From: Cellvibrio zantedeschiae
GTDB lineage: Bacteria; Pseudomonadota; Gammaproteobacteria; Pseudomonadales; Cellvibrionaceae
Reading direction: 5' to 3'
DNA length: 64,000 nucleotides
Assembly: GCF_014652535.1 (NCBI RefSeq)
Contig: NZ_BMYZ01000002.1
Location: 434,001-498,000, forward strand
This document shows, piece by piece, positions 7,679 to 63,932 of this stretch. Position 1 is the stretch's first letter, and each line of letters opens with the position of its first letter. The notes beneath the pieces are model-generated. The model had not been told where the DNA came from, did not search any database, and was given only the letters and a program-made list of their open reading frames with translations. The translations under genes and the position numbers were made by a program.

Positions 7679-7849
7679 CAACGGTTGCCGTTGTTCGTAG
7701 TCGATTCCCAAAAGCGCGTTGCTGGAATCAAACCGAAAGGTTGCGCTTACCATCACTGAAGTATCAGCTTCTTTCATCTTAACCCATCGGGAAAATCTTC
7801 CCGCTGGGGTTGGTTTTTCTCAAGGGTAACTTTATCCAGGAGAACTACC
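7679..7849 (+). promoter_or_regulatory. Structured 5' leader L1 (P0-P1-P2-P3)
   Basis: Leader of the gene at 7850. P0 is CAACGG-TTG-CCGTTG at 7679-7693. P1 at 7703-7729 has stem GATTCC/GGAATC around the 15-nt loop CAAAAGCGCGTTGCT. P2 at 7781-7811 is AACCC...GGGTT enclosing CGGGAA-AATC-TTCCCG. P3 pairs TTCTC (7817-7821) with GAGAA (7840-7844), which overlaps the AGGAG ribosome site. It shares this order of elements with leaders elsewhere in the window. The rest of the 7484-7849 gap shows nothing else I can support beyond a CTTTTT-CTGC-AAAAAG hairpin. Confidence 0.75.
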
Positions 7850-8344
7850 ATGATCACCATCACTTTAACTCCACAAGGGCAAATTGCTAAGCGTGTAGTG
7901 TTAACAATTTTGCGTTTTTTTTGGGCTAGCTTTGTATTCATCGTCACAGTGCTTTTCGCGCTTGTGTGCTTCCTCTTCGGGACACCGGGTAAAAAGCAAT
8001 CGTCTTCTAAGGGTGGAAAATCTCAGGGTAGAAATCAAAAGCTACCTGAAAAGCCTATACCGCAAAAGCCTGCAAAGAGGCTTTCTCAAGAAGTGGTTTA
8101 TGAGCCTACCGCCTATGTCATCACACTTGCTTCAGACGAGCTTCATTTTCGTGAAAAGATTGCTGCATTGAGACGTAGCGGCTATAGATGGCATTCTGGT
8201 TTAAATGCTTGGGCTCTTCCGAAAGTTAGACTTGGGAATAATCATCAAAACTTTGAAAAAATTATCGGAGAATTAAAGCGAGTAGGGTACAAATGGAATG
8301 GATCTTGTTGGACGCTTTATTTTCCACCATCAATCAGAAAATAG
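7850..8344 (+). CDS. Membrane-anchored protein with GYRW-type repeats
   Basis: A 164-residue protein of unknown function. A membrane helix (about residues 18-44) is followed by a Lys/Ser/Pro-rich linker and then two related segments of about 30 residues: REKIAALRRSGYRWHSGLNA followed by WALPKVR, and FEKIIGELKRVGYKWNGSCW. The same repeat pair closes the STY4534-type replication protein at 62936-63751, so a module is shared between genes at opposite ends of the ICE. The ATG follows AGGAG and lies behind leader L1. The repeats look like a small alpha/beta fold; DNA or protein binding is possible but not shown. Confidence 0.75.
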   Translation: MITITLTPQGQIAKRVVLTILRFFWASFVFIVTVLFALVCFLFGTPGKKQSSSKGGKSQGRNQKLPEKPIPQKPAKRLSQEVVYEPTAYVITLASDELHFREKIAALRRSGYRWHSGLNAWALPKVRLGNNHQNFEKIIGELKRVGYKWNGSCWTLYFPPSIRK

Positions 8345-8373
8345 AGTATCTCGAAAGTTATATTTCCAATTAT

Positions 8374-8403
8374 AAAGCGAGGTCTGGTGGCCCCGCTTTT
8401 TTT
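8374..8403 (+). terminator. Terminator after the GYRW-repeat gene
   Basis: AAAGCG ... CGCTTT stem with an internal AGG/CCC pairing and a run of seven T, 30 nt after the stop codon at 8344. Confidence 0.75.
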
Positions 8404-8424
8404 CTGGCCAATGCCTCATTATTT

Positions 8425-8670
8425 TCATGACATGGACATTTTGGTCACTTTTTGGCTCTTCAGTTTTTCATCAAATTCCTCGATAAATTTGTCTAAATAT
8501 TTTTTGAGAGTTTCCTTCCGTAGTTCCAGTGCTTCTATGAACTCAATAAATTCTAAAGCTTCATCTTCCGATGAGCAGGAAATTATGAGCTCTCCATCCA
8601 AATAAACCAGCCATACTTCATCGCCATGGGTTTCGTCCATTCGAATTGAAAAGTTTTCGTTTGTTAGCAT
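8425..8670 (-). CDS. Small acidic hypothetical protein
   Basis: An 81-residue acidic protein with two strands (DEVWLVYLDGELIISC) followed by long charged helices (LEFIEFIEALELRKETLKKYLDKFIEEFDEKLKS). The ATG at 8670 sits 7 nt after CCGGAG, which supports a real gene. I do not recognise a family. Size and charge would suit an antitoxin, inhibitor or anti-restriction protein, but nothing shows this. Confidence 0.6.
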   Translation of the reverse strand: MLTNENFSIRMDETHGDEVWLVYLDGELIISCSSEDEALEFIEFIEALELRKETLKKYLDKFIEEFDEKLKSQKVTKMSMS

Positions 8671-8748
8671 TTAACGCTCCGGTCTTAAAATCCTGAGTTT
8701 TTTGTAAGTTAAGTAATATTCCTCCAGTTCTGGAGGCAATTTTTTCAT

Positions 8749-9500: not shown

Positions 9501-12500
9501 TTAATGAAAATTTCTCGCTTTAATCGTTAGCTGGGAGAGTTGATCAGAGTAATCCGCCAGGTGGCCTGCAATTATATGCACCACGGGCCGCTTCACATGG
9601 TCGGTCACTATTTCAATGGTGCCTTTGATCACCATGAGCTTGCTTGTCAAAATCACTTTCCTGAATACCTCTTGGGTACGAGCCCAGACAATTACATTTA
9701 CGTCTCCGGTTTCGTCCTCAAGAGTTAGAAACATGGTGCCGCTGGCTGTACCAGGGCGCTGGCGGCATGTGACAAGCCCTGCAATGCGTACGAAGCCTTT
9801 GTTTCGGAGTGTAAGCAGATCCGCGTTTTTGGTACAGCGATTAAACGGTCGTTCGTCACGCAATAAGGTCATTGGGTGTGCTCGCAGCGAATGTCCTAAG
9901 GCCCTAAAATCGTCGAATATATCTCTCGCCTCTGTTGGCGCACTGGTGAAGAGGTCGTCTTTGTATCGCTCTCCCGGATTAAGCAGCTCAGAATACTCCG
10001 CTATTGCTGCTGCTTCCCATCGAGCTTGGTAGCGATTGCCACTTAATGATTCGAACGCAGACGCAGAAGCTAGCTCCTGGAGCTCTGTTGAGGTCAGCGC
10101 GCAGCGTCTTGCAACTTCTTCAATGGAGGCGAATAGTGTTGCTCCCCGGTGATGCTCGATCTGGCTTGCTGCCTCGGTATTCAGCCCATTAATTTCCCGA
10201 AACCCTAAGCGTATTCCGATAGAAAGTTGACCAAGAGCAGCTGGTACCCGCTCAAGTGAATTTTCGTAACTACTCTTGTTGATATCGACGGGCAATACGG
10301 CCACGCCATGGCGGCGTGCATCCTGGATGAGTTGTGACGGCGAATAAAATCCCATTGGTTGGGAATTTAACAGCGCGCAGCAGAATGCCGCTGGGTGATG
10401 GCGCTTGAGCCAGGACGACGCGTAGCAAAGCAATGCGAAGCTCGCGCTGTGACTCTCCGGGAAGCCATAGCCACCAAATCCTTTTACTTGTTCAAACATA
10501 CGCTCTGCGAACTCTGTATCGTATCCGTTGCTTAGTAACCCGTTTATGAAATCGTCTCGGAAAAGTAGGAGTTTGGAGTTTTTGCCCCAATTGGTCATGG
10601 CTCTGCGCAGCTGGTCAGCTTTGCCACCCGTAAAGCCTGCGCATGACATGGCGAGTCTCATAACTTGCTCTTGAAAAATCGGCACGCCAAGGGTTGGACT
10701 CAATACATCCTTAACGGCGTCGGTAGGGTATGTGATCGGCTCAAGACCACTTCGTCTGCGAAGATAGGGATGTACCATATCGCCCTGTATAGGCCCCGGT
10801 CTGACGATGGCTATCTCGACCACGAGATCGTAAAAGCATTTCGGCTGCAGGCGAGGCAGCATCGCGATTTGTGCCCGTGATTCAATCTGGAATACGCCCA
10901 CGCTGTCGCCATGACAAAGCATTTCATAGGTATCCGGATCTTCGCGTGGAATACTGGCTAAAGATTTAATCTCGGGAGCATAACTATTGACGAGCTCCAA
11001 TGCTCGGCGCAGCGCGCTCAACATTCCGAGTGCCAGGACATCAATTTTCAATAGGCGCATTGCCTCTAGGTCATCTTTATCCCATTGAATGATTGTCCTG
11101 TCTGGCATGCTGGCGTTTTCAACGGGAACCAGGTAGCTCACCTGATCCTGGGCGATAACAAAACCGCCGACATGCTGGGACAAGTGGCGAGGAAATCCTA
11201 AAATCTGGTGCAGCAAATTAAAAAAATGCGAGAGCAATTTTTTATTGCCACGTAAGCCAAGTTCTTCAATGCGCTTGTTGATATCAGTCGTAGAGTCCCA
11301 CCAGGTAATATTCTTCGCGATAAAAGAAACCAAGGAGAGATCCATGCCTAACGCTTTGCCTACATCCCGCACGGCACTTTTAGGCCGGTAGGTGATAACG
11401 GTCGCTGCAATTGCCGCTCTTTCTCTACCGTATTTTTGGTAGATATATTGGATGACTTCTTCGCGCCGCTGATGTTCAAAATCAACGTCGATATCAGGCG
11501 GTTCATCTCGTTCGCGTGATATAAATCGTTCAAACAAAACATTGATTTGGCCCGGCGCAATCTCCGTGATAAACAGGCAATAGCAGATAACGGAATTGGC
11601 GGCTGATCCTCGCCCCTGGCAGAGAATATTATTTTCACGAGCGAACCGCACAATGTCGTGTACTGTTAAAAAATAATATTCGTATGAAAGTTCTTCGACT
11701 AATTCGAATTCCTTTTCGATTAGCTCTTCAATGTGGGAGGGTGCCCCTGCAGGCCAGCGATCGCGTTTGCCCAGTTCCACCAGGTTACGCAAATGCGCTA
11801 TGGGTGTAAGGCCTTCGGGTACGAGTTCCCTGGGATATTGGTAGCGCAACTCGGTCATCGAAAAATTGCACAAATCCGCTATGACTGTCGACTCTTCGAG
11901 AAGCGACTCCGGATAAAGCAAACTCAGTTGCTCTTCTGATTTTAGGTAAGCCTCACCGTTTAAAATAACGTTGCCACCTAGATCGGGAATAGATGTGTTT
12001 AACCGGATGGCCGTCAGTACATCCTGGAGCGGCTTTCGACTTTTGCAGTGCATGAGTGCTTCGCCGCACGCAACCATTGGTATCTGTCTAGAGCGACTCA
12101 GTTGTAGCCATCGAAGAAAGCGCTTTTGCTCACCACCGTGCAACTGATGATTGATACCAATCCATAGCCTACCCTTAAACGCATTGTTCAATTCGTCTGC
12201 GATTTCCTCAGGAGCGATATCAACGCCGTGGATTTGTCCGAGCCAAATGATTAAACAATGTTGCAGGCGAAAGCGAAGATCGTCGAAATGTGCTTCGTAT
12301 TCACCTTTGGAAGACCGGCGACGAGCGAGTGTGATAAATCCGGAGAGTTCACCATAAGCTTTTTTTGATGGAGCTATAGCGATCAACCGCATGCCATTGC
12401 TTAAGGTGAATCGACTTCCAACAATTAATTTAAAATTTAATTCTTCGGCGGCCACAAACGCTTTCACCACACCGGCGAGTGAACATTCGTCGGTGATGGC

Positions 12501-12608
12501 CAGTGCGTCATAGCCCAGCTCAGCAGCGCGCTCGATGTATTCAGGTGGATGAGATGCGCCGGTTAAAAACGTAAAATTGGTGATGGTGTGTAGGTGAGCG
12601 TAAGCCAT
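9501..12608 (-). CDS. dnaE2: Error-prone DNA polymerase DnaE2 (ImuC)
   Basis: Alpha-type (C-family) translesion polymerase, the catalytic subunit of the ImuA-ImuB-DnaE2 mutasome used in DNA-damage-induced mutagenesis. The 1035-residue product has an N-terminal PHP domain (HLHTITNFTFLTGASH), the polymerase acidic motif PDIDVDFEHQ at about residues 367-377 with the third acidic residue in KIDVLAL near 520, and a C-terminal OB-fold (GFVRIAGLVTCRQRPGTASG). I chose the ATG at 12608, 4 nt after the ImuB stop, because it begins directly at AYAHLHT; the longer frame overlaps imuB. Last gene of the SOS operon. Confidence 0.95.
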   Translation of the reverse strand: MAYAHLHTITNFTFLTGASHPPEYIERAAELGYDALAITDECSLAGVVKAFVAAEELNFKLIVGSRFTLSNGMRLIAIAPSKKAYGELSGFITLARRRSSKGEYEAHFDDLRFRLQHCLIIWLGQIHGVDIAPEEIADELNNAFKGRLWIGINHQLHGGEQKRFLRWLQLSRSRQIPMVACGEALMHCKSRKPLQDVLTAIRLNTSIPDLGGNVILNGEAYLKSEEQLSLLYPESLLEESTVIADLCNFSMTELRYQYPRELVPEGLTPIAHLRNLVELGKRDRWPAGAPSHIEELIEKEFELVEELSYEYYFLTVHDIVRFARENNILCQGRGSAANSVICYCLFITEIAPGQINVLFERFISRERDEPPDIDVDFEHQRREEVIQYIYQKYGRERAAIAATVITYRPKSAVRDVGKALGMDLSLVSFIAKNITWWDSTTDINKRIEELGLRGNKKLLSHFFNLLHQILGFPRHLSQHVGGFVIAQDQVSYLVPVENASMPDRTIIQWDKDDLEAMRLLKIDVLALGMLSALRRALELVNSYAPEIKSLASIPREDPDTYEMLCHGDSVGVFQIESRAQIAMLPRLQPKCFYDLVVEIAIVRPGPIQGDMVHPYLRRRSGLEPITYPTDAVKDVLSPTLGVPIFQEQVMRLAMSCAGFTGGKADQLRRAMTNWGKNSKLLLFRDDFINGLLSNGYDTEFAERMFEQVKGFGGYGFPESHSASFALLCYASSWLKRHHPAAFCCALLNSQPMGFYSPSQLIQDARRHGVAVLPVDINKSSYENSLERVPAALGQLSIGIRLGFREINGLNTEAASQIEHHRGATLFASIEEVARRCALTSTELQELASASAFESLSGNRYQARWEAAAIAEYSELLNPGERYKDDLFTSAPTEARDIFDDFRALGHSLRAHPMTLLRDERPFNRCTKNADLLTLRNKGFVRIAGLVTCRQRPGTASGTMFLTLEDETGDVNVIVWARTQEVFRKVILTSKLMVIKGTIEIVTDHVKRPVVHIIAGHLADYSDQLSQLTIKARNFH

Positions 12609-12612
12609 GGCA

Positions 12613-14109
12613 TCACCCGAATATGCCGTGTACAAACCAGGTTTTGGTTTTCAGATCTTTAAAAACCCAAAGCCGGACATGATCATGCCTAGTAGCAACA
12701 AAATAATCCCGCGCAATGGTAGTGCCCAGCCAATCGCCGTGTATTCGTTCGGGCCCAGTCCCCAGGTTGAGGTAGCCCCGCCAATACAGGCCTTTCTTTC
12801 TCTCTTCGATAGGTACCGGGTCTGGAATCAACCAGGTCGGGCGCGGTACATCTGTGAGCTCCTCCGGCACTTCCTGGTTGCAAGGAGTTGCAAGTGGAAT
12901 TTTTTCCTGACTTAACTCCGGAGCAATCGCTCGTTTGTAACTCAACTTATAGACAGCATCATCCCCCAATCTCGCTTTTAGCTTGGCAGCGGTAATCGAA
13001 AAATCCTGATTCAGATTTCGGCTTCTACGAGCTAAATCAAAATTGAGTACCTGGCCACGGCTCTGCAATCGTGCAGTGTGTTCGCAGGTGAGAGTAAGTA
13101 TGTCCACCTCAAAAGAAAATTGCCTATGTTCCAATTGGATCATTGTGAGATCGTAAAATAATTCCCAGTGACTTTGCGGAATGTCGGCAAACACTTTTAT
13201 GTATTCATGTGTTTTATAAATATCACTCAAGGTCCATTCGATGTGCTGTGTTTCCAGTTGGTTTTTGCGCAAATAATCCGAGAGCTTTTGCAATAAATTC
13301 TCAACCGGCCACTCCATCAATGCCGTCGAGCTTGTGGGGTATTCAAATTGCACGAACGTCGAAAAGTGCTCAGCCGGCTTATAGGTGGCAACAGGAACAG
13401 AAAATAAACTTCCTTGTTGGAAATCCAGATCAATGCCAAACATACGGCACAGGTAGTCAGTAAAAGCCTGTCCAAATCGTTTCCTGATTCCAGCGATACT
13501 TTGTCGCTCAATTTGATGAGCGATATCGCCCAAAATAAAGAATCCGGTCTTTTCCAATGCTTCAACTTGTTTTGGAAATTCATAAAGCAGCTCAACTGGC
13601 AGCTGGTTTAGCAGATGAATAAAATCATCTTTGCTTTCGTGAAACGAATACTCAGCATCTGCATAGGTTAGTAACCAGGCCGCTTCCGCTGTGTGTGCCA
13701 TGCCAAACTCGACCCGATGCTGTCCGTTCGCGAAAATCTGAAGTGCTTGCTCCTGGATTGCTTTCGCTCCACCGAAGAGCTGCAGGCATGTAGATACCTC
13801 TAGCGTCAATCCCAAATGTGTAACTGTGGTTGAGGTGATAAAAGTGATATGGGGTGTTATGACATACAAGGCCTCCGCCTGGCGCTGCAGGAATTCCTCT
13901 TCGAGCGCGCGGTCGCGCTCCACGAATTCACAGTCGCTTAAGGTTTGGGCCGTTGTAATATCCATGCCGATCTCAGCACCAGCTGCTTCGGCCTCAGGGC
14001 TTACCCAAATAACGCGGTGCCGCTCGATGATTACTGAAGAGGGAGAGGTATTAATTCCCAGGGCAGCGAAAGGTGCATCGATCAGGCGAAATGAAAACCA
14101 TAATTTCAC
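12613..14109 (-). CDS. imuB: ImuB, Y-family polymerase-like mutasome scaffold
   Basis: ImuB is a Y-family (DinB/UmuC-like) protein lacking polymerase activity that ties DnaE2 to the beta clamp and ImuA. The 498-residue product begins LWFSFRLIDAPFAALGI and contains LGLTLEVSTCLQLFGG, the region aligned with the polymerase active site but without the usual acidic pair, as expected for ImuB. Its start overlaps the imuA stop by 4 nt (ATGA), so it is translationally coupled. The C-terminal part includes RPTWLIPDP, typical of ImuB proteins. Confidence 0.92.
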   Translation of the reverse strand: MKLWFSFRLIDAPFAALGINTSPSSVIIERHRVIWVSPEAEAAGAEIGMDITTAQTLSDCEFVERDRALEEEFLQRQAEALYVITPHITFITSTTVTHLGLTLEVSTCLQLFGGAKAIQEQALQIFANGQHRVEFGMAHTAEAAWLLTYADAEYSFHESKDDFIHLLNQLPVELLYEFPKQVEALEKTGFFILGDIAHQIERQSIAGIRKRFGQAFTDYLCRMFGIDLDFQQGSLFSVPVATYKPAEHFSTFVQFEYPTSSTALMEWPVENLLQKLSDYLRKNQLETQHIEWTLSDIYKTHEYIKVFADIPQSHWELFYDLTMIQLEHRQFSFEVDILTLTCEHTARLQSRGQVLNFDLARRSRNLNQDFSITAAKLKARLGDDAVYKLSYKRAIAPELSQEKIPLATPCNQEVPEELTDVPRPTWLIPDPVPIEERKKGLYWRGYLNLGTGPERIHGDWLGTTIARDYFVATRHDHVRLWVFKDLKTKTWFVHGIFG

Positions 14110-14861
14110 TTTCGCCCCCGTATTGAAAATACCGGCGCTTTGGGTTTTGGTCGCAGGCCTGTGCCGTCCGACTCGTACAGATCAAGCAAATGGTAAGGTA
14201 ATACCGCTTCGGTGTTAGAGGGCAGGGGTAACTTAACTAGCTTGTCTCCCTGCAGCATTCCGCGCTGCTTAAAGATATTTGCGACTATGCCGTCGGCTTG
14301 AGCGCCGACCAAAACACGTAGACTCGCTGGTGATGATTCCTGCTGTGATGCGGAGGATCGGAATAGGGTATACAGGCCATCCCCTTCGTGGGCGGCAAGT
14401 AAACATTTGCGTAAATCCGTGTAGGTGAGACGCAGATCCTGTGGCCAGGCGAGTAATATCCCACATGCTGGTGTGCGACAAAGCTCAACGAAACTGGAAA
14501 TGAAATCCTCGGCTCTGGATGAGCGAACTATGCGAACACGCTCCATATCCACACCGGCGATGATTAGGCTGTGAGCAAAGGGCACGAGTGGAGGGTTTAG
14601 CAGTACTATCAAACCATCGGATTCGCGCAGGGCTGGCGTAAATAAATACCACTCATGCTGAGTGAAACCTTGCTGGCAAACTTCAATAAGTGCTTTTGCT
14701 GGCCAGCCACCAGTTACCAAGGCATCGTTAAGCGCTGGATATCCAGTATCAAATCCAGAAGATTCTACAGCTGCCGGGAATTCCCCGCGCCACGTGTCAC
14801 CCCGGAGCATGATCTGCTCCAGGCTAACGCGGCTGTCAATGTCGGGGGGTAGGGAATCCAT
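14106..14861 (-). CDS. imuA: ImuA, RecA/SulA-like mutasome protein
   Basis: First gene of the mutasome operon. ImuA proteins are RecA-like and modulate the mutasome through contacts with RecA and ImuB. The 251-residue product shows FDTGYPALNDALVTGGWPAK with ALIEVCQQG, the characteristic N-terminal core of the family. The canonical Walker A is degenerate, as usual for ImuA. The ATG at 14861 lies 17 nt downstream of a LexA box that overlaps the -10 element. Confidence 0.93.
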   Translation of the reverse strand: MDSLPPDIDSRVSLEQIMLRGDTWRGEFPAAVESSGFDTGYPALNDALVTGGWPAKALIEVCQQGFTQHEWYLFTPALRESDGLIVLLNPPLVPFAHSLIIAGVDMERVRIVRSSRAEDFISSFVELCRTPACGILLAWPQDLRLTYTDLRKCLLAAHEGDGLYTLFRSSASQQESSPASLRVLVGAQADGIVANIFKQRGMLQGDKLVKLPLPSNTEAVLPYHLLDLYESDGTGLRPKPKAPVFSIRGRK

Positions 14862-14878
14862 GGTGCTCGCAATGTTAA

Positions 14879-14923
14879 CTGTGTTTATATACAGTATAGG
14901 CCGACCTACCTAATGTAGGTCAA
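14879..14923 (-). promoter_or_regulatory. imuA promoter with LexA (SOS) box
   Basis: CTGTGTTTATATACAG at 14879-14894 fits the gammaproteobacterial LexA consensus CTGT-N8-ACAG. On the minus strand TTGACC (14923-14918) and TATACT (14898-14893) make a promoter with 19-bp spacing, and the box overlaps the -10, an arrangement that blocks polymerase when LexA is bound. A second dyad, GACCTAC-CTAAT-GTAGGTC at 14903-14921, lies in the spacer and is of unknown use. Confidence 0.85.
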
Positions 14924-15062
14924 GATTTGCTTTAGAACGTTTTGACCACTACGCCGTCTATGCTTGCATTAGAGCGTGATTAAAACCCAATGAACGAAGA
15001 CAAGCGAACCATCCGTAAAACCGCAGAGATAGCGGCTTATAACCGATTCGAGGGGGTAAACC

Positions 15063-15803
15063 ATGTGTGGAAGAATTTGGGTAAAGCCTACCCCAACTCT
15101 GGAGCAGCTTCTGGAGGCCTTTGAGGTTTTCGATTTGGTTTTGCCGATACTGAACAACGCGGCCCCTACTGAACAGCTTCCGTTTCTCTACCCCGGAGAG
15201 GACGGTCGCTTTCAGGCGAGCATGATGCGCTGGTCGTTACACCCTGGGGGACTTCCCACTCCGCCGCCGTGGTCGTATGCCACTCACAACTCCCGGATTG
15301 AAGACACTGCCACCAGTCGAGCTTTTGGCGCACCTCTGCGATATCGCCGGGGCATTGCGCTGATGGCTGGATTTGTCGAGTGGCAAACTGAAGTGAAAAT
15401 TATCGAAACGGGCATCACAAAAGCAGGCAAGATCAAGACAAAGACGATTAAAAACAAGCTTCCATATTACGCTGATTGTATAGACCAACCTATGATTGCA
15501 GCGGGTATTTGGGATGTGTGGCGCGACCAGGTATGTAGTTTTGCCATCATTACGCAGCCAGCGAATGAAGCGTTCGCCCCATACCACTCGCGAATGCCGT
15601 TGTCGTTAACGAGAGAGCAGGCCCGGGAATGGATGGCGTCAACCGATGACGCCCCAGGATTGCTAAAGGCACTTGAGGGCAGCAGCTTACCTTTACGTAT
15701 TAGGGCTGTTTCTCCAGAAATTAACGATGCTAAAAAGAAAATTGATGTGTCTTTTGTTGAGCGCGAACTAAATATTACCAGCACTCAGTCGTCTCTGTTT
15801 TAG
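15063..15803 (+). CDS. SRAP / YedK-HMCES family protein
   Basis: SOS-response-associated peptidase family protein. YedK/HMCES crosslinks through its N-terminal cysteine to abasic sites in single-stranded DNA and protects them. The product begins MCGRIW, so Cys2 is exposed after Met removal, and contains HNSRIE, RRGIALMAGFVEW and PYHSRMPLSL, the conserved Asn, Glu and His active-site regions of the family. It is 246 residues, normal length. The ATG follows GAGGGGG. It is divergent from the mutasome operon and about 170 nt from its LexA box; SOS control is likely but not shown. Confidence 0.93.
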   Translation: MCGRIWVKPTPTLEQLLEAFEVFDLVLPILNNAAPTEQLPFLYPGEDGRFQASMMRWSLHPGGLPTPPPWSYATHNSRIEDTATSRAFGAPLRYRRGIALMAGFVEWQTEVKIIETGITKAGKIKTKTIKNKLPYYADCIDQPMIAAGIWDVWRDQVCSFAIITQPANEAFAPYHSRMPLSLTREQAREWMASTDDAPGLLKALEGSSLPLRIRAVSPEINDAKKKIDVSFVERELNITSTQSSLF

Positions 15804-51423: not shown

Positions 51424-51453
51424 TTTGAAAGGGCTTATTTAATACGGAGAATA

Positions 51454-51498
51454 ATGGCGCCACGCAATGGTAAAAATTTGAACAAGGAATATATATGA
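51454..51498 (+). CDS. 14-codon leader ORF overlapping the PHP-ATPase start
   Basis: ATG at 51454 follows CGGAGA and encodes MAPRNGKNLNKEYI; its stop overlaps the next start as ATGA. This is a typical arrangement for translational coupling. The peptide is basic and without rare codon runs, so its main role may be to set the expression level of the toxic-looking downstream ATPase. Confidence 0.5.
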   Translation: MAPRNGKNLNKEYI

Positions 51499-57300: not shown

Positions 57301-57302
57301 AA

Positions 57303-57365
57303 GATTTTCTCACAAAAAAATCCCCGCAAAAGATTCGACCCCTGCGGGCAAAATCCCGCAGGGGT
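57303..57365 (-). promoter_or_regulatory. Structured 5' leader L9 (P2-P3)
   Basis: Leader of the helicase gene. P2 at 57338-57365 is a perfect 11-bp stem ACCCCTGCGGG/CCCGCAGGGGT with a 6-nt loop. P3 at 57303-57322 pairs GATTTT with AAAATC and puts the weak ribosome site GTGAG in the loop. Upstream, more hairpins occur (GTGTG/CACAC, GGCC-GTTA-GGCC, TGAACAC/GTGTTCA up to about 57450), but I see no P1. Confidence 0.65.
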
Positions 57366-57463
57366 AGGTGGTGGCCTAACGGCCGATGAGTGTGCAAATA
57401 CACACGATAATGAACACAGGCTCACGCCTCGCCCCTTCCACCGTGTTCACGAGGGGCTTTTAA

Positions 57464-58090
57464 TCACCAAAGGTTACGTTGGTGAGGTACATCCGAAGCA
57501 CTCATAAGCAAGACCTGTGACTTGATCGCATCCGTGACTAATGACTCGAACTCATCACCAGGCAGTTTCACTCGATATCCCGCTACGCCTTCGCCATCCA
57601 GGGAGTGAATCCAGCCCCGGTCGAAAAACTCCGGTACCAGATAGTCCTGCCAGTGATCGAGCAATGGAAGCTGACTCAAATCTTGGATGGCATGCCATAG
57701 GCGAGCGCGGACTTCCGTAGGGTCATCCTTGAGGCCACTGAGCACATAACATTCACCACTACCACGATCTGCTCGCTGCAGCGCTGGGTCAAAAACCCAA
57801 ACATTGCAAAGCGAACCGAGAACAGTAGTAACGGGTGTGCGGCCGGTAAGCTTGGTTAGGCGATCCACCTGGCCTGCAGTGATTTTTTTATGGAGAGCAC
57901 CAGCTGGTGTTTCCAAGGTAAAACCACGCAAACCAAGTTCATCGCTTCCTGGGAGAGAAAGGCGCGCAATGAACTCTTGCAAAACCGTCTCACCCCCCCA
58001 AAAGCTACCAAACACCCACCGCTCACCTTCCAGTGCATACGCATCAACAAACAATGGCGCCGACGCTTCAGCAACGTTGTAGAAGTTCAT
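57464..58090 (-). CDS. Hypothetical ICE protein
   Basis: A 208-residue soluble protein with no recognised domain. It contains many aromatic and strand-like segments (ERWVFGSFWGGETVL, LCNVWVFDPALQRA). The ATG at 58090 follows GGAGATATTT, 9 nt after the stop of the methyltransferase upstream. Conserved position in the operon DUF3275 - methyltransferase - this gene - helicase suggests a shared role. Confidence 0.7.
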   Translation of the reverse strand: MNFYNVAEASAPLFVDAYALEGERWVFGSFWGGETVLQEFIARLSLPGSDELGLRGFTLETPAGALHKKITAGQVDRLTKLTGRTPVTTVLGSLCNVWVFDPALQRADRGSGECYVLSGLKDDPTEVRARLWHAIQDLSQLPLLDHWQDYLVPEFFDRGWIHSLDGEGVAGYRVKLPGDEFESLVTDAIKSQVLLMSASDVPHQRNLW

Positions 58091-58099
58091 AAATATCTC

Positions 58100-59212
58100 C
58101 TAACGAATCGTGAATACCTGGCCAAACTCTGCCGAGGTGGGTTCAACATCAATTGCTTTGATAATGGGCACAAACCTATCGGTCAATACCCTCGTCTCCT
58201 CTACCGTACCATCCTCATTTTCTGTGATCTCCAAGGAGGATTCCTTCTCCTTGTGAGTACCACCTTTCACGAGAAGCTTTCTGCCACCTGCCGACGTTAC
58301 TACGCCAGACACCTGACCAGCTGCCAACATCAATGCCAGGTGCCAATCGGAAAGCGCCCGGGCAGGCCTTCGCTTAACAACGGATCGTTGCTTGAAGTGC
58401 TGCGCAAAGTCAGTCCATAGGCAGGGGTGTTGCCGGGAAACCTCTTCGACTTGCTCCAGGGTCGGACGAGAGCTCCGAATTTCCAGTGTCTTGTTTTCCA
58501 TCGCGGTCGTAACAACCGGTATGGCATAAAGACGATCAGGAATCTCCGGAAGCAACGGAGCCAGGTCTCTGTCATTTGCAATAGCGATCAAGTGATTCAC
58601 TAACGCAGCAGAGGCCTGACCATCCGTTCGCCGACGATGGCCAATAACCACAACTTGCTTGAAGCGCTCTTCCGGGAGACGGTAGCAACTCAGTTCATCG
58701 AGGCTACGAACTAACTGCCTAGCCAGGTGCTTATCGAGAACATAGTGCGGAATGATGTAAATCAGCAATCCGCCAAAATGCAGCATAGGAAGTGTCCGAG
58801 ACAGAAAATACTTCTCCAGTCGATCTCGCCCCGCCGACGACCTATCGCGATATACCTGGTCGGTGATGCGATCACCGTAGGGAGGATTAAGCCAAAGCAA
58901 ATTGAACTGCCCTGAGCTCACGACGCAATCCTGGATATCGGAATGCACAACATGATCAAGTAAAGTCTTCGCATTGAGCGCGCGTTCGGCCTCATACTCA
59001 ATACCCGCAGAAAAAGTATCTACATTGAGGGTGTGCAAATAATTTGCACATTCAGCCAACGCGATACCTTCTCCACAGCATGGGTCGATAAGACGAACCT
59101 TGCCAGGCTTTACATCGAACATTGCGAGCAGTCGCTCAATCGTGGTTTCATCCGTAGGGAAGTAACCGTTTTTTATAAAATTGCGGGCGAGGCGCTGAAA
59201 AATTAAGGCCAT
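58100..59212 (-). CDS. DUF6094-like DNA methyltransferase
   Basis: A 370-residue class I methyltransferase with motif I LIDPCCGEGIALAE near residue 39 and catalytic LLWLNPPYGDR near 108-115, the NPPY of amino-group DNA methylases. The C-terminal domain is unlike known target-recognition domains. I recall this arrangement as DUF6094, common in ICEs. It starts 3 nt after the DUF3275 stop and is followed by the unknown gene and helicase. May protect the ICE from host restriction. Confidence 0.8.
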   Translation of the reverse strand: MALIFQRLARNFIKNGYFPTDETTIERLLAMFDVKPGKVRLIDPCCGEGIALAECANYLHTLNVDTFSAGIEYEAERALNAKTLLDHVVHSDIQDCVVSSGQFNLLWLNPPYGDRITDQVYRDRSSAGRDRLEKYFLSRTLPMLHFGGLLIYIIPHYVLDKHLARQLVRSLDELSCYRLPEERFKQVVVIGHRRRTDGQASAALVNHLIAIANDRDLAPLLPEIPDRLYAIPVVTTAMENKTLEIRSSRPTLEQVEEVSRQHPCLWTDFAQHFKQRSVVKRRPARALSDWHLALMLAAGQVSGVVTSAGGRKLLVKGGTHKEKESSLEITENEDGTVEETRVLTDRFVPIIKAIDVEPTSAEFGQVFTIR

Positions 59213-59215
59213 AAA

Positions 59216-59764
59216 TTACTCCTTAACCCAGTGTTGCTCGCTAGCAACGAAGCGATAGCCGTTAGCTTTAAGATGGTCTTTTTGCTGACGAAATAACGCG
59301 CGATTGATGGTGGGATCAAGCTTGACGCAATTTCCCAAGGGATAAAGAAAACCAAACAAACTTTGGAGTGTGCTGTCCTCATCCAGGGTAGGAGCATCCT
59401 CAATGAAATGTGTTGGGTGGCCGCTGCCGGCCAGTTGCCCCAACGGGAGATCAGCCATGTCCTCTTCAAGTGGATCTTGCTCGAAACTTTCTGCGAGCAC
59501 CGGTTGCGGTGACGCGTCGCGCTTTAACATGATCGCACTCAAGAACGCACGAACTTCAACAACCATTCGTCCTGAGTGAAAGTAGCTGTTCGGCTTGATT
59601 TTCTCGATGACAAAGTCACCGGTGTAACTGCCCTCATCGAATTCTTCTATGGAAGAATCTTTGACGGTAAATGAGCCAATTGAACATTCGAGTGTGCCAA
59701 CATTGAAAGAGCCAAAGCGACCCTCAATCGAGCGAATGTTGATTGTTCCTGGAACTGAAATCAT
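59216..59764 (-). CDS. DUF3275 family ICE protein
   Basis: A 182-residue protein of the DUF3275 family, seen in genomic-island ICEs. The N-terminus ISVPGTINIRSIEGRFGSFN with VGTLECSIGSFTVKD and GSYTGDFVIEKIKPNSYF is the conserved beta-rich domain with GR...VEVRAFLSAI. Function unknown; its position next to methyltransferase and radC suggests replication or maintenance. Translation starts inside leader L8. Confidence 0.82.
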   Translation of the reverse strand: MISVPGTINIRSIEGRFGSFNVGTLECSIGSFTVKDSSIEEFDEGSYTGDFVIEKIKPNSYFHSGRMVVEVRAFLSAIMLKRDASPQPVLAESFEQDPLEEDMADLPLGQLAGSGHPTHFIEDAPTLDEDSTLQSLFGFLYPLGNCVKLDPTINRALFRQQKDHLKANGYRFVASEQHWVKE

Positions 59765-59771
59765 AAAACCT

Positions 59772-59912
59772 CTCCTACATAAAAAATGCCCTGCAGGAGT
59801 TCATACCCTTAGGGAATGAAATCCCCAAGGGCGATGATCGAATCAAGCTGTTGCTCCGCTACTATTTCAGATTCTCCGAGTAGCTTTTAAGATTGGCTGA
59901 CGCCAACTTAAA
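59772..59912 (-). promoter_or_regulatory. Structured 5' leader L8 (P0-P1-P2-P3)
   Basis: Leader of the DUF3275 gene. P0 at 59886-59912: TTGGC-TGAC-GCCAA within TTTAAG/CTTAAA. P1 at 59858-59884: GCTACT/AGTAGC around a 15-nt loop (sense loop CGGAGAATCTGAAAT). P2 at 59806-59831: CCCTTAGGGA/TCCCCAAGGG (one G-U) with 6-nt loop. P3 at 59772-59799: sense CTCCTGCA pairs with TGTAGGAG, which contains the ribosome site. Two further hairpins (59920-59960 and GTCACTC-GAAA-GAGTGAC at 59955-59972) lie upstream. Confidence 0.8.
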
Positions 59913-59982
59913 TTCATTTCGAAACGCACCGCGCGATGCGCTTTGAGATGAATTCGGTCACTCTTTCGAGTGACTGAAATCA

Positions 59983-60432
59983 TTAGATAAGACCTTTCTC
60001 CGCAAAAGACGTTGAGCCACTTGGCCCAACAATAATGTGATCGATGACACTCACAGCGATGAGTTGCAGAGCGTCCTGCAAGCGCCGCGTAATGTTTCGG
60101 TCTGCATCGCTAGGCGTTGTGTTACCGCTTGGATGATTGTGGCTTAGAATACAGCTTGAAGCATTTAGTTGAAGCGCACGTTTCACAACCTCACGAGGAT
60201 ATACGCTTGCTTGGTCAATGGTTCCTAAAAATAAATCTTCTGCTGAAATTAATTGATGATTGCTATTTAGGAATAGAACACAAAATATTTCTCGTTCCGA
60301 TTGGCCTAATCGCAAGCGAAGATAATTTGAAGCTATTTCTGGTGAAGTAAAATTTTCCGCATCCGCCATTTTCGCTTCCATTATGCAAAAAGCTGCATGC
60401 ACTACTTCATCTGCACTGTTGTAGGTGAACAT
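59983..60432 (-). CDS. radC: RadC-family JAB-domain protein
   Basis: A 149-residue RadC/JAB-domain protein with the metal-site motif SHNHPSGNTTPSDAD and the preceding Glu in SEREIFCVLFLN. RadC-like proteins are frequent on ICEs and phages; they are predicted metalloproteases or nucleases of unsettled function, not proven in repair. The Met at 60432 (MFTYNSADEV) is preferred because GGGAG precedes it. Confidence 0.92.
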   Translation of the reverse strand: MFTYNSADEVVHAAFCIMEAKMADAENFTSPEIASNYLRLRLGQSEREIFCVLFLNSNHQLISAEDLFLGTIDQASVYPREVVKRALQLNASSCILSHNHPSGNTTPSDADRNITRRLQDALQLIAVSVIDHIIVGPSGSTSFAEKGLI

Positions 60433-60435
60433 AAA

Positions 60436-60572
60436 TATCTCCCGAAGATAAGACTTGCCTCCAGGAACAGCCACCCGTCCGGATGTCCCGGAGGGGTGAG
60501 TGTAGAATCAGGATTTCTCCTCGCTGCTATTTCAGATTCTGTGAGCAGCTAAATAAAATTGGCGACGCCAAT
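60436..60572 (-). promoter_or_regulatory. Structured 5' leader L5 (P0-P1-P2-P3)
   Basis: Leader of radC. P0 at 60558-60572: ATTGGC-GAC-GCCAAT. P1 at 60523-60549: GCTGCT/AGCAGC with the 15-nt sense loop CACAGAATCTGAAAT; compared with L8 one pair changed from A-U to G-C. P2 at 60472-60498: CACCC...GGGTG enclosing TCCGG/CCGGA. P3 at 60436-60450: TATCT/AGATA spans the GGGAG ribosome site. Upstream: 9-bp ATTTCAAAT/ATTTGAAAT and GCCCAATC/GATTGGGC hairpins to about 60630. Confidence 0.8.
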
Positions 60573-60637
60573 CTATTTCAAATAACTCTCTTAAAAGCGA
60601 TTTGAAATAAAGCCCAATCATTGATTGGGCGCGGCAC

Positions 60638-60982
60638 TCACTTTGGAAAAATTTCCTCCGCAATTCGTTCAATAACGTCGTAATTCATTTTCGCTATGCC
60701 TGCTTTCTTCGCGCGGATGCGCAGGAAAACGGTCATCGCTTGATCTTCACTTAAATCGCGACGAACTCTTGCGACGTCGTCTACATGCCATCCGTAGTAG
60801 GAAAGCTTTTCCTCCGGATTGGGGTTGAGGTAATGTTGAACTCGCAATGCGAGATCATAAGTGCTGCGAAAATTTCCGAGCTGGGTATTTGGAACCTGGT
60901 TTAGCGCTTCGAGGCAGTCCGCCAAAAATTGACGATCTACCAAAACCTGTTGCAAATTTTTCGCTTTGTCGTTTTGAGACAT
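60638..60982 (-). CDS. Hypothetical ICE protein
   Basis: A 114-residue helical protein: SQNDKAKNLQQVLVDRQFLA, then YYGWHVDDVARVRRDLSEDQ and AKMNYDVIERIAEEIFPK. Not recognised. The ATG at 60982 is chosen because GGAG precedes it inside the P3 hairpin. Similar in its C-terminal pattern (LSEDQAMTVFLRI) to the next gene upstream (LNAEQCMIVLQVA), hinting at a shared domain. Confidence 0.7.
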   Translation of the reverse strand: MSQNDKAKNLQQVLVDRQFLADCLEALNQVPNTQLGNFRSTYDLALRVQHYLNPNPEEKLSYYGWHVDDVARVRRDLSEDQAMTVFLRIRAKKAGIAKMNYDVIERIAEEIFPK

Positions 60983-60988
60983 GAAAAG

Positions 60989-61039
60989 CTCCTTGTGAAT
61001 GCAAGGAGAAACCCCGTAGGGGTTTCCCCCAGGTGGGTT
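60989..61039 (-). promoter_or_regulatory. Structured 5' leader L10 (P2-P3)
   Basis: Short leader between two ORFs. P2 at 61010-61039: AACCC...GGGTT enclosing GGGG-GAAA-CCCC (a GNRA tetraloop in the sense strand). P3 at 60989-61008: CTCCTTG pairs with CAAGGAG over a 6-nt loop, completely hiding the ribosome site. Confidence 0.78.
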
Positions 61040-61052
61040 AAGGTAAGACGGA

Positions 61053-61589
61053 TTAAACCGCTTGTGGATAAAGAACATCTGCATGTTCTTTGATGGTGTT
61101 CAGGCAGAGTGGATTGTCCATTTGGCTAGAAGCAACCTGTAACACAATCATGCACTGCTCGGCATTGAGCTCTGGCCGTAACAGTTGAACATCGACAGGC
61201 TTCCATTCAACCATAACGCTTTTAGGGCTCGTATCAGTCCCATCAAACATTCTGGCCAATGCCAATAGACTGTGTTCATCGGATTCAGAAAGCGCATCAC
61301 GCACCTCATAAATATCTTCAGCATCACAGAATCTATTTATTCGCGCGAATACATCTTCCCAGTCGTAATCAATGCTCGGATCGACAATGCAATTTTCTCG
61401 ATAGTGCAGCCACCGCGATACCAGGTATGCAAAAACTACCTGGTTATATTCGCTCTCCACCGGCAAAGAAATCGCCATATGTTCAAGCCAGGCAAGCATC
61501 GCTTCGAAATCCGATTTGATGCCACTGGTTGGCAAAATTGCTTTGTACGTAGTGTAGAAAGCGTCGTTGGTAGCTTGTGAAATGGACAT
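61053..61589 (-). CDS. Hypothetical ICE protein
   Basis: A 178-residue soluble helical protein with the segment WKPVDVQLLRPELNAEQCMI near the end, related in pattern to the end of the next gene downstream (VARVRRDLSEDQAMTVFLRI). Function unknown. The ATG at 61589 follows GAGGAGAAA, which is paired in P3 of leader L7. Confidence 0.7.
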   Translation of the reverse strand: MSISQATNDAFYTTYKAILPTSGIKSDFEAMLAWLEHMAISLPVESEYNQVVFAYLVSRWLHYRENCIVDPSIDYDWEDVFARINRFCDAEDIYEVRDALSESDEHSLLALARMFDGTDTSPKSVMVEWKPVDVQLLRPELNAEQCMIVLQVASSQMDNPLCLNTIKEHADVLYPQAV

Positions 61590-61591
61590 AA

Positions 61592-61730
61592 TTTCTCCTC
61601 ATAAGTAAGTTTGTGGGGAGAAATCCCAACAGGGATTTTATCCCCATTGGGTTTGTCGAAATGAAAGCGATTTGGCGCGAACTTACAAACTGAAGCAGCG
61701 TAAAACTTAAAGCTTGACGCTAGGCTTCAG
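61592..61730 (-). promoter_or_regulatory. Structured 5' leader L7 (P2-P3, P1-like)
   Basis: P2 at 61625-61651 is a 12-bp stem (CCCAACAGGGAT/ATCCCCATTGGG, two G-U) with a 3-nt loop. P3 at 61592-61623 pairs sense TTTCTCC with GGAGAAA, the ribosome site. Further upstream 61690-61730 forms CTGAAGC/GCTTCAG plus AGCGT/ACGCT around 15 nt; this resembles P1 but overlaps the end of the preceding gene. Confidence 0.72.
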
Positions 61731-61953
61731 TGTGCCTTGAAACGGCTGGCTGGCACCACGTCTCAAGGTCGGCTATCTCGATCTTGTTGTTTGGAAATTC
61801 CTTAAGATAGACGTCAGGGCCTGCACAGATGATCTCAACAAGAGAGCCTTCCCGTTTAGCCCAATATCTTAAATTTACCTTTTCCAAGCACGTATGAATC
61901 TCGGTGATCATTCCTTCATAATATTCGGGAAACGGGTTCATAAATATCTTCAA
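61720..61953 (-). CDS. Small hypothetical ICE protein
   Basis: A 77-residue protein (MKIFMNPFPEYYEGMITEIH then TCLEKVNLRYWAKREGSLVE) with mixed strands and helices. Its ATG overlaps the stop of the gene upstream by 4 nt, so it depends on that gene for translation. Function unknown. Confidence 0.65.
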   Translation of the reverse strand: MKIFMNPFPEYYEGMITEIHTCLEKVNLRYWAKREGSLVEIICAGPDVYLKEFPNNKIEIADLETWCQPAVSRHTEA

Positions 61954-62150
61954 GGATTATCACGTTGAGTCCACAGATCTTCGCGTAAAGCCAATTCCGC
62001 GAGCTCTTTCTTTCGCCAGTATTCAACTGATTCCCGGCTTACCGGTCCTTCTTCGTTGGCTGTTCCGATGTAAAAGCCGGCCGCCGACTCCAAAACCTGT
62101 AGTGGCAATCTGATCTGACAATGCGTTTTGGCAAGAAAACCTACCTTCAT
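61950..62150 (-). CDS. Small hypothetical ICE protein
   Basis: A 66-residue protein (KVGFLAKTHCQIRLPLQVLE, then SRESVEYWRKKELAELALRE). Ribosome site AAGGAGG. It begins after leader L6 and is coupled to the next gene. Not recognised. Confidence 0.68.
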   Translation of the reverse strand: MKVGFLAKTHCQIRLPLQVLESAAGFYIGTANEEGPVSRESVEYWRKKELAELALREDLWTQRDNP

Positions 62151-62156
62151 AATGAA

Positions 62157-62310
62157 CCTCCTTAATTAAAGAAATCCATTAGGTGCCGTCATCCCATTGG
62201 ATGAATGACCCAATGGGAGTGACAAAAATAAGCGCAATAAAATTCGACCCTATTGCAGCGCTTGTGAGGATCTTTTTAAAGTCACAACGGAAGCCGTTGC
62301 CGCTTTAAAA
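62157..62310 (-). promoter_or_regulatory. Structured 5' leader L6 (P0-P1-P2)
   Basis: P0 at 62274-62310: CAACGG-AAG-CCGTTG inside TTTTAAAG/CTTTAAAA. P1 at 62246-62272: sense stem GATCCT/AGGGTC around the 15-nt loop CACAAGCGCTGCAAT. P2 at 62193-62217: a 10-bp stem CCCATTGG.../...CCAATGGG. The AAGGAGG ribosome site (62163-62157) has only a weak 4-bp partner (ACCT), so P3 is not convincing here. Confidence 0.75.
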
Positions 62311-62319
62311 TCTTCAATA

Positions 62320-62935
62320 AAGATGAATGCTTTGTAAAAAACACCCATGTTTATTAGAGATTTATTCGCGTCCATGCGAATAGAAACTTATCTGAATTCG
62401 TCGCCGTGAATTACCAACAAGTTAACCATCGAGCACGGTCAAGTCCGCACAACGATTCACGTCAATTTTGCTCGCGGACGGACGCGGTTTAGGTGGGATT
62501 TTGCGGCACTACGAACAGTCAGTGCGCTGAGAGTGAATCACGATAATGTACATGATCCATTGTCAACACACTGAAAATCCCGAAGATAAGATGGCCCGGA
62601 CGTTTACACATCCAGGGCCATGTTTTGATGGGAAGGTATCGCATCTCACTGCGATTGATACGCTGGGGGCAGTTAGAGCCAGTGGGGAGGACGCCAGCCA
62701 AGGCAACCACCAGCTCACCCAACGAAAAGATACAAGGATCGTAAAACGATGCGGCAATTAAACCTCGTTCGAGCCGCCAAACCCCTAAGGGCTAAAGGTC
62801 GCGGAAACAGCCGCGTCTGGAGAATCGTCATGGTGAAAATGTCGTTTTAACAACATTTTGGCCATGACGCCTCTGGGATGGAGTAATCCATCCCCGAAGC
62901 ATACATGGCGCGCCAAACCAACACAATCCTACATC
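62320..62935. other. Structured non-coding region, candidate oriT or ncRNA
   Basis: About 600 bp without a supportable gene, rich in inverted repeats: ATGGCCC...GGGCCAT with inner GGA/TCC (62591-62621), ATCGT-AAA-ACGAT (62738-62750), GCGGC/GCCGC around CTCG/CGAG (62751-62777), CGCGG/CCGCG (62800-62815), GTCATGG-AAAATGT / ACATTTT-CCATGAC (62827-62868), GGGATGGA-GTAA-TCCATCCC (62875-62894). Short frames here lack ribosome sites. It lies just downstream of an ICE replication gene. Confidence 0.5.
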
Positions 62936-63751
62936 CTAATGGGGTTGTTGATAGGTGCGCTGTTGAGCAAATTGCTGGTTCGTTGAGCGAAATGCACCTT
63001 GCGGTTTATTGAACTCAAACTCCCAAGCTGTAGCCGCCTTGTTCCAGCGATATCCGAGTGATTTAAGCTCGGCCACCTTGGCCTGGAAATCCGGGTGGCT
63101 TTTATCCAGTCTCACAGAGGGTAATACCCAGGCTGTGAGATCTCTCGCCCAGCGATAACCCTCTCCCTTCAGGCGTTCCTTCGTAATTTCGAAGTTTGGC
63201 TCCGTCTGGGACAGTTGAACCACGAAAGGGCGATTGTTTGGAGCTTGCGAGGTAGGCTCTTGCGCTAGCTGAGCATTCCGAGCAGATCCTTGAGCATGTA
63301 CACCAAAATCGGTTGTAGTGGCTTTTTCATTCCGCTTCAGCTTCATCGTCTGATCACCCACTTTGAGATGGAGGATATTGATAAGCTTTGCCGAATAGTT
63401 AACCCCTAACTTACCTGGTGTCTGGCTTTCGGGACCGTACACAAATGGTTTTGCACGGTAGTCCGCCAGTCGTAAGCCAACGAATACTTTTGTGTCCGGA
63501 TCGTTAATGTGCTCCACAAACGGCAGCAGTTCATTAAGGGCCTTTTCACAAGGTATTTTCAACGAGATGAAAGTCTTATCAGGGTTGAGTGGATTTCCTT
63601 CCAGCATGCAAAAATTTGCAGACCAGAAAGGAGCAAAATCCTGACCGGACTTCGGGTTAACCAATTCAAGTGAATCAAGGTAACCCAAACCTTCAGTATG
63701 GGCGTTGAAATAATTTATTGGGGCTGATTGAGCTTTGGAATTCGAAATCAT
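62936..63751 (-). CDS. STY4534/DUF3577-type ICE replication protein with GYRW repeats
   Basis: A 271-residue protein. The N-terminal about 150 residues (NYFNAHTEGLGYLDSLELVN, ANFCMLEGNPLNPDKTFISL, VFVGLRLADYRAKPFVYG) match the STY4534/DUF3577 ICE replication family, thought to be single-strand-binding-like. The C-terminus adds two GYRW-type repeats (FEITKERLKGEGYRWARDLT, VAELKSLGYRWNKAATAWEF) as in the gene at 7850. The Met at 63751 follows GGAG, which is sequestered in leader L4. Confidence 0.82.
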   Translation of the reverse strand: MISNSKAQSAPINYFNAHTEGLGYLDSLELVNPKSGQDFAPFWSANFCMLEGNPLNPDKTFISLKIPCEKALNELLPFVEHINDPDTKVFVGLRLADYRAKPFVYGPESQTPGKLGVNYSAKLINILHLKVGDQTMKLKRNEKATTTDFGVHAQGSARNAQLAQEPTSQAPNNRPFVVQLSQTEPNFEITKERLKGEGYRWARDLTAWVLPSVRLDKSHPDFQAKVAELKSLGYRWNKAATAWEFEFNKPQGAFRSTNQQFAQQRTYQQPH

Positions 63752-63758
63752 GTTAATT

Positions 63759-63932
63759 CTCCGGGGGTAGAAAAAGAAAAACCCGGAGGCAACAGACTCC
63801 CGACGGGAGTAGTTCCCATCGGGCAAGATGAAGAAGCCAAAGCTTCAGAAATGAATATAAACGCCGTCTTTCGACACGATCCCATTACAGCGCTTGTGGG
63901 GATCTCTTAAAAGGCTCAACGAATAGCCGTTG
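63759..63932 (-). promoter_or_regulatory. Structured 5' leader L4 (P0-P1-P2-P3)
   Basis: P0 at 63917-63932: CAACG/CGTTG. P1 at 63878-63904: GATCCC/GGGATC around the sense 15-nt loop CACAAGCGCTGTAAT. P2 at 63799-63823: CCCGACGGGA/TCCCATCGGG with a 5-nt loop. P3 at 63759-63788: sense CTCCGGG pairs with CCCGGAG, hiding the ribosome site. A further TTGCG-CAT-CGCAA hairpin lies at about 63966-63978. Confidence 0.8.

Follow-up and report, generated by a model that had tools for sequence, protein, structure and literature searches.

In translational riboswitches and in the leader switches of ribosomal-protein genes, an anti-SD strand masks the Shine-Dalgarno (SD) sequence and can also pair with another partner. 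The leaders described in this work resemble these systems in that an anti-SD strand also hides the SD and has a second partner, but they lack a conserved ligand core and stand before many unrelated genes of one mobile element. The closest named RNA is radC RNA (Rfam RF01754), which is listed as certainly an RNA and probably cis-regulatory, with an ambiguous status as a switch (Weinberg et al., 2010; PMC2864571); another work counts radC among the RNAs that gain covarying pairs and does not specify these pairs (PMC7657543). The STAXI motif, reported with two or three tandem pseudoknots (Weinberg et al., 2010; PMC2864571), is similar in having pseudoknots near genes of DNA-handling mobile proteins and different in that the present leaders have one core each and no Rfam match. 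We analyzed a stretch of 64,000 nt from Cellvibrio zantedeschiae (RefSeq assembly GCF_014652535.1, contig NZ_BMYZ01000002.1, positions 434,001 to 498,000 of the forward strand; this whole stretch is called the window), which carries genes of an integrative and conjugative element (ICE). It looks as if this element sets the same folded RNA, a pseudoknot followed by an SD-hiding hairpin, before many unrelated genes, and as if this RNA is a diverged relative of radC RNA.

The original prediction, made from the letters of the window, had placed one leader architecture before at least nine genes; the nine listed are named here by their window positions: a CAACG/CGTTG- or TTGGC/GCCAA-type hairpin (P0), a 6-bp stem with a 15-nt loop (P1), a nested CCC...GGG hairpin (P2), and a stem in which CUCC-like bases pair with the GGAG of the SD (P3). 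All nine leaders were located at these genes. P1, claimed in six, was counted in seven (7850, 44846, 57300, 59764, 60432, 62150, and 63751), with a 15-nt loop in each, and it is one half of a compact pseudoknot that had been overlooked: the 6-bp stem and its loop are followed by a short hairpin and then by five or six bases that pair with loop bases 4-9. The loop/strand pairs are AAGCGC with GCGCTT (7850 and 62150) or with GCGTTT (63751), GAATC with GATTC (59764, and 60432, where it extends to AGAATC with GATTCT), TAGGT with ACCTA (44846), and GAACAC with GTGTTC (57300). The other two leaders, 61589 and 60982, have P2 and P3 only; an unfiltered model scan of 60900-61800 gave a best score of 3.9 bits on their (minus) strand, within a gene, and its top match (10.2 bits) was on the opposite strand. 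An initial search by a pattern that combined P1 and the pseudoknot but left out the hairpin was unspecific (37 window matches vs. 14-33 in ten shuffles).

In a MAFFT alignment of the seven window cores, made blind to structure, pairing extended to 98.2% of cells, and compensatory changes were seen in 13 of 16 pairs. No shuffle in 500 equaled this, a count that is not a true probability because leaders of one element or before orthologous genes are related, and sliding the partners lowered pairing to 29.5-39.1%. Among 47 distinct cores (the window seven included), 94.7% of cells were paired, compensatory changes occurred in all 16 pairs including the six of the pseudoknot, and the pseudoknot helix alone reached 88.5%. 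These cores were collected with R1, a covariance model limited to P1 and the hairpin; since the pseudoknot is absent from R1, the non-seed rows test it independently. A pseudoknot of at least 5 bp was found in 30 of the 40 non-seed cores vs. 19.6% of 1560 cross pairs, and in the 21 of them with 15-nt loops 84% of cells paired in a fixed register, a level equaled by none of 5000 shuffles. We concluded that the pseudoknot is strongly supported by this comparison of sequences.

Among the non-seed cells G.U pairs exceeded A.C, 29 to 3, and this excess points to a structure that sits in the RNA of the coding strand. The same count bears on another explanation, that the leaders work as single-stranded DNA structures while the element is transferred by conjugation, for instance as promoters on the entering strand. 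Genes of mobile-element type (RadC, DUF3577, helicase) would suit such a role, but the window leaders occur on both strands (two plus, seven minus) and yet always on the coding strand just 5' of the start codon, and the SD, a translation signal, forms part of the fold. With the G.U excess added, we regard this explanation as very improbable.

A covariance model, proposed earlier as a check, was built and run on genomes, and its matches in related elements stand before the same genes as in the window. In the C. zantedeschiae genome (4.27 Mb), R1 gave nine matches at E below 1e-6, all within the ICE, and the next best match had an E of 0.85; 150 of 813 first-look candidates were scored in this search. 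Two of the nine, which had gone unnoticed, lie past the window end (genome positions 498930-498983 and 499608-499661, minus strand). Over 144 genomes of the family, R1 found 34 matches in 12 genomes, the nine included. From 30 source sequences it gave 49 matches, which are the 47 distinct cores; a handful of these are doubtful (e.g., L056 and L057) and were retained. R1 also misses members, and several distant leaders scored only 10-20 bits. Over 369 genomes of the class it matched two besides the own genome, neither with leader anatomy by eye. The model R2, run over 398 phylum and 390 order genomes, gave one weak match (∼20-29 bits) in each of 17 and 22 genomes besides the own; the P2 pattern was seen in none of its 36 loci, and eight gave a loose, chance-like pseudoknot parse. 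R2 overstates significance in its E-values, and in these wide searches the filters were strict and few candidates were scored in each genome, so that absence is not proven.

The known RNA nearest to these leaders was not detected in them by score. RF01754 had no match at the gathering score (40 bits) in the own genome or the window, and an Rfam scan of the window found nothing in the leaders at gathering or at E up to 10 (seven matches, all elsewhere). Over 143 class genomes RF01754 had 0 matches, likewise 0 in the 14 control genomes of that search; over the 144 family genomes three had a match, of which only G284 was over the cut-off. The matches in the other two, G242 and G254, were rejected as below cut-off and without leader anatomy by eye. 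Conversely, the window models detected none of the radC copies given to them, in L031, L092, L182-L184, and five further named loci. In G284, four RF01754 copies over cut-off (up to 128.6 bits) lie within 41 kb of one contig: before a relative of DUF3577 (24-25% identity, E ∼1e-10), before a RadC gene whose product is 47% identical to the window RadC (60432), before a 70-aa gene whose product is 54% identical to that of 62150, and before one gene of unknown kin. An ALIL pseudoknot (RF01497, 101.9 bits) was also noted near these copies, at L031 3315-3431. RF01754 leaders precede the STY4534 (DUF3577-type) genes of pKLC102 and pZDHY95 as well, and the pKLC102 STY4534 protein is 28% identical to the 63751 product. 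With the DUF3577 protein of G284 as query, the best 80 of 166 loci were taken and 20 of them were scanned with Rfam; radC RNA stood before that gene in 20 of 20, and eight further copies were present.

The radC copies were then parsed for a pseudoknot. The 31 copies hold 21 distinct loop/strand pairs, of which 19 can form at least 4 bp (vs. 38% of cross pairs; 0 of 5000 in a permutation test), and the types GGTC/GACC, GACC/GGTC, and GATC/GATC substitute for each other. By eye, the radC match is followed on its 3' side by a CCC..GGG hairpin and then by a CUCC/GGAG pair. Both groups are thus leaders of ICE genes with the same topology of P1, hairpin, and pseudoknot (a feature found here, not taken from Rfam), both continue with a CCC..GGG P2 and a CUCC/GGAG SD hairpin, and radC RNA stands on mobile elements before relatives of window genes 60432, 62150, and 63751. 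They differ in the P1 loop, which has 15 nt and a CA...TGNAAT-like pattern in the window vs. 9-12 nt in radC RNA, and in the intermediate hairpin, which is shorter in the window. Since architecture and genes are the same and an RF01754 score is missing, we call the window leaders a putative divergent subfamily of a radC-type class, and not RF01754 members, a kinship drawn from topology and gene context, not from score. The original prediction of a common switch family therefore stands as to shared architecture and SD hiding but not as to complete novelty, because radC RNA, listed in 2010, has the same pseudoknot and a similar P2 and P3. The RNA name given there, DUF3577, is that of the gene at 63751, and no Rfam family so named matched the loci searched. 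The cmscan structure line for RF01754 shows no pseudoknot; such models cannot carry one, so this line is silent on the Rfam or ZWD seed, and the radC pseudoknot may already have been drawn in the 2010 supplement or in ZWD. No paper on the mechanism of radC RNA was found in the literature searched, which lacked most subscription papers and a 2017 collection; as far as this search reaches, three things are new: that both groups have the pseudoknot, that a divergent set is spread over the ICE, and that the anti-SD strand has a second partner.

Next, we examined the output end of the leaders. In minimum-energy folds P2 is present in all nine window leaders, and the SD is paired (three or four of its four bases) in all nine, mostly with a CUCC-like strand and weakly at 57300; P2 had been claimed in all nine and a strong P3 in seven. 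The stretch from the pseudoknot end (or from before P2 where there is none) to the start codon is better folded than its dinucleotide shuffles, clearly so in seven of the nine: the z-scores, for folds that do not include the pseudoknot itself, are -3.8 (63751), -5.6 (62150), -4.3 (61589), -2.6 (60982), -2.6 (60432), -5.2 (59764), -5.1 (57300), -4.8 (7850), and -4.0 (44846), and 3 of 200 shuffles folded as well for 60982 and for 60432 vs. 0 of 200 for each of the other seven. A P2 plus P3 pattern scan picked out 5 of 72 window starts; all five belong to the nine leaders, and the other four leaders escaped it (the controls, with one match in 11 starts each, were small). The claimed hiding of the ribosome site is supported in the wider set: the median SD unpaired probability was 0.0075 over 42 leaders and 0.24 over 149 control genes from these loci (Mann-Whitney p 4e-8, uncorrected for relatedness). 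The predicted SD partner lies 5' of the SD in 43 of 43 leaders (taken as the median of the four bases; three rows are split), at a median distance of 22 nt. In the 22 rows with a readable CUCC/GGAG pairing, the next outward pair is TA in 10, GC in five, CG in one, AT in one, and unpaired in five, and the next inward pair is standard in 16 and not in six. Over 51 folded leaders, P2 is in the best fold of 49 and the SD is paired in 50.

By a loose criterion, 30 of 43 leaders have a T-rich segment between P2 and the SD, and at 57300, where the terminator pattern is clear, a 10-pair hairpin (57323-57348) overlaps the 3' arm of P2 and is followed by a T-run. These features would fit transcription attenuators, in which the long alternative hairpin would act as intrinsic terminator and P2 as antiterminator, with control of readthrough and not of ribosome access. 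But 13 of the 43 have no T-run even by the loose criterion, no closing hairpin was found in three more, the hairpin is not the alternative pairing of P2 described below (P4) in several, and the U-run is at the same time just the loop of the SD hairpin. Because the radC leaders before DUF3577 show by eye no T-run after the anti-SD strand, termination would be at most an extra, and we consider attenuation unlikely.

The anti-SD strand, which lies 3' of P2, is in many leaders also complementary to the 5' half of P2, a second partner missed before; examples are GGGATAAA with TTTATCTCC in the leader at genome 499608 and AACCCACTGG with CCAGTGGGTT in L077. The energy of this duplex (P4) was calculated for 53 leaders, namely 43 with cores and 10 others (seven from pKLC102 and pZDHY95, the radC leader L095, and window 61589 and 60982). 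The own mean was -12.4 kcal/mol vs. -8.9 for permuted partners, no permutation in 5000 reached the own mean, and the own partner strand was in the best 10% in 20 and 28 of 53 leaders; in this parse P2 was misplaced in L095 and the partner strand was cut short in several. L095 and L182:1797 (SD not readable) were left out of the folds, which leaves the 51. With the SD forced free, 30 of these adopted the P2 5' half/anti-SD hairpin, including 63751, 60432, 62150, 61589, and 60982 of the window. The complementarity of the anti-SD strand to the P2 5' half suggests a two-state translational switch, which is likely for the class as a whole and a candidate in each single member.

Leaders with P2 and SD hairpin in which no pseudoknot was found (window 61589 and 60982; L182 1495 and 1797; L183 1492, 1790, and 2230) occur in pKLC102 and pZDHY95 too, and the predicted output module seems to exist on its own. 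These leaders of P2 and P3 alone would also suit passive insulation, in which the hairpins only hold translation of the ICE genes low or protect the RNA and nothing is switched; so would the SD-paired fold, favored over the SD-free fold by a median of 7.4 kcal/mol, and the 21 of 51 leaders in which P4 did not appear. However, an elaborate covarying pseudoknot would be superfluous for insulation, and the complementarity of the anti-SD strand to the P2 5' half exceeds permutation. We judge insulation to be rather improbable.

We think it fairly probable that the leaders act in cis as switches of translation, are of the same kind as radC RNA, and put shared control on genes scattered over one ICE. 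P0 and then P1, pseudoknot, and hairpin would form a receiving domain, and the part downstream would be an output with two exclusive folds. In the OFF state P2 would be closed and the CUCC-like strand would pair with the SD as P3; in the ON state the 5' half of P2 would leave its own 3' arm and pair with the anti-SD strand as P4, so that the SD is freed. A factor that reads the shape of the pseudoknot, most probably a protein that occurs while the element is active, would shift the balance between P2 and P4 in all leaders together. P2, the SD pairing, and the complementarity behind P4 are supported by comparison, as is the pseudoknot, and we infer P4 as the ON state, the pseudoknot as the sensor, and a protein as the signal. 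A protein is preferred over a metabolite because the paired strands vary freely, strong matches outside the ICE are missing in this genome, and unrelated genes are served. The layout, a compact pseudoknot with an SD-sequestering output and a possible alternative fold, is also that of a metabolite riboswitch with the pseudoknot as aptamer; but highly conserved aptamer nucleotides would then be expected, and across the seven window copies no more than 7 of the 54 core columns stay unchanged. Together with the freely varying strands, the unrelated mobile genes served, and the lack of a strong match in the host genome outside the ICE, this makes a metabolite ligand quite improbable.

Besides the relatedness of the leaders, several results weigh against a translational switch shared by all of them. 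P4 is absent from the SD-free fold of 44846, 57300, 59764, and 7850, so that only three of the seven pseudoknot leaders of the window form it, and the best fold is favored over the SD-free fold by the median energy given above. The best fold of L045:1930 contains P4 and still has its SD paired elsewhere, and 57300 combines a poor SD with its terminator-like hairpin. The length of the SD helix is only modestly special (at least 7 bp in 16 of 41 vs. 10% of shuffles; at least 6 bp in 29 of 41 vs. 33%). No sigma-70-like promoter was seen before the minus-strand leaders (in 57000-64000 one site, on the other strand, vs. 7.9 expected). As a tentative and rather doubtful extension of the switch reading, the leaders may form an RNA-level regulon in which one factor, probably encoded by this ICE class, would know all pseudoknot leaders by their shape and flip them together from P2/P3 to P4; genes scattered over the ICE, replication-type, RadC, and others, would then be co-translated on activation; radC RNA in the Pseudomonas, Burkholderia, and Xanthomonas elements would then be the same regulon in another sequence dialect.

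The individual leaders are laid out as follows. On the plus strand, the leader of gene 7850 (7679-7849) has P0 at 7679-7693, the core at 7698-7751 (P1 GATTCC/GGAATC), P2 at 7783-7808, and the SD hairpin at ∼7812-7849, and that of gene 44846 (44675-44845) has P0 at 44675-44692, the core at 44700-44753, P2 at ∼44758-44799, and a GCTCC/GGAGC SD hairpin at 44804-44840. On the minus strand, the leader of the SNF2-type helicase gene 57300 (57301-57484) has its core at 57409-57462, P2 at 57338-57365, and a weak SD. The leader of the DUF3275 gene 59764 (59765-59906) consists of P0 (59893-59906), core (59836-59889), P2 (∼59802-59832), and a CTCCTGC/GTAGGAG SD hairpin (59772-59799); that of the RadC gene 60432 (60433-60571) of P0 (60559-60571), core (60501-60554), P2 (∼60471-60498), and SD hairpin (60440-60466). 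The two leaders without a detected pseudoknot are those of 60982 (60989-61039; P2 61010-61039, SD hairpin 60989-61008) and 61589 (61590-61651; P2 61625-61651, SD hairpin 61590-61624). The leader of the 66-aa gene 62150 (62151-62299) has P0 at 62285-62299, the core at 62227-62277, P2 at 62194-62218, and the SD hairpin at ∼62150-62181, and that of the DUF3577 gene 63751 (63752-63932) has P0 at 63917-63932, the core at 63856-63909, P2 at 63799-63823, and a CTCCGGG/CCCGGAG SD hairpin at 63759-63788. The P0 claim stood by eye in six leaders, as CAACG/CGTTG at 7850, 44846, 62150, and 63751 and as TTGGC/GCCAA at 59764 and 60432, but at 57300 the hairpin present is CACCAA/TTGGTG and lies within the upstream open reading frame (ORF). 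Upstream of the first leader, a symmetrical hairpin with T-runs on both strands (7211-7245) follows an ORF ending at 7209 and is a likely bidirectional terminator.

A start codon with an SD was located for 43 of the 47 cores, and by the rule used none was found for L079:8376, L055, L056, and L057. Of the 43 proteins encoded downstream, 33 group into seven recurring families and ten are singletons. The recurring families are DUF3577 (including a C-terminal relative at 7850), the 70-aa protein at 44846, RadC, the SNF2-type helicase, DUF3275, a 240-aa unknown protein just past the window, and the 66-aa protein at 62150; gene 63751 is DUF3577 (PF12101) and gene 59764 is DUF3275 (PF11679). The conserved fold and these gene families bear out one architecture before unrelated genes of one ICE. 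A conj_TIGR03755 protein in the window and ICE_PFGI_1_parB, ICE_PFL4669, and STY4528 proteins just beyond it identify the element, as judged from its protein families, as an ICE of the PFGI-1 kind; topoisomerase- and SSB-type genes are also present just beyond. Right after gene 44846, a 71-aa ORF (45165-45380, plus strand) resembles by eye a diverged paralogue of it, with a different inverted repeat upstream. The region 46623-54236 is a probable defense cargo island, with a serine-recombinase-like gene, a DGQHR-domain protein, and a weak Dam-like match below cut-off (46623-51312) beside a TrlF/Ppl-type anti-phage ATPase (51495-54236, plus strand; 627 bits to TrlF). A DnaE-type polymerase subunit, a weak ImuB-like match (below cut-off), and SRAP at 9501-15803 make a possible error-prone polymerase cassette, beside which lie copper, cadmium-type, and iron transport genes. 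In an ICE stretch beyond the window (L045 4692-5441, minus strand), a TraT-like protein scored 139.8 bits, which falls short of the curated cut-off.

The name of radC RNA dates from 2010, and the divergent copies described here expose a covarying pseudoknot, present in radC RNA too, and a candidate two-state SD output, which together make the function of radC RNA directly testable. The findings suggest that the Rfam radC model sees only part of a wider class, and that ICEs may coordinate distant genes through RNA.

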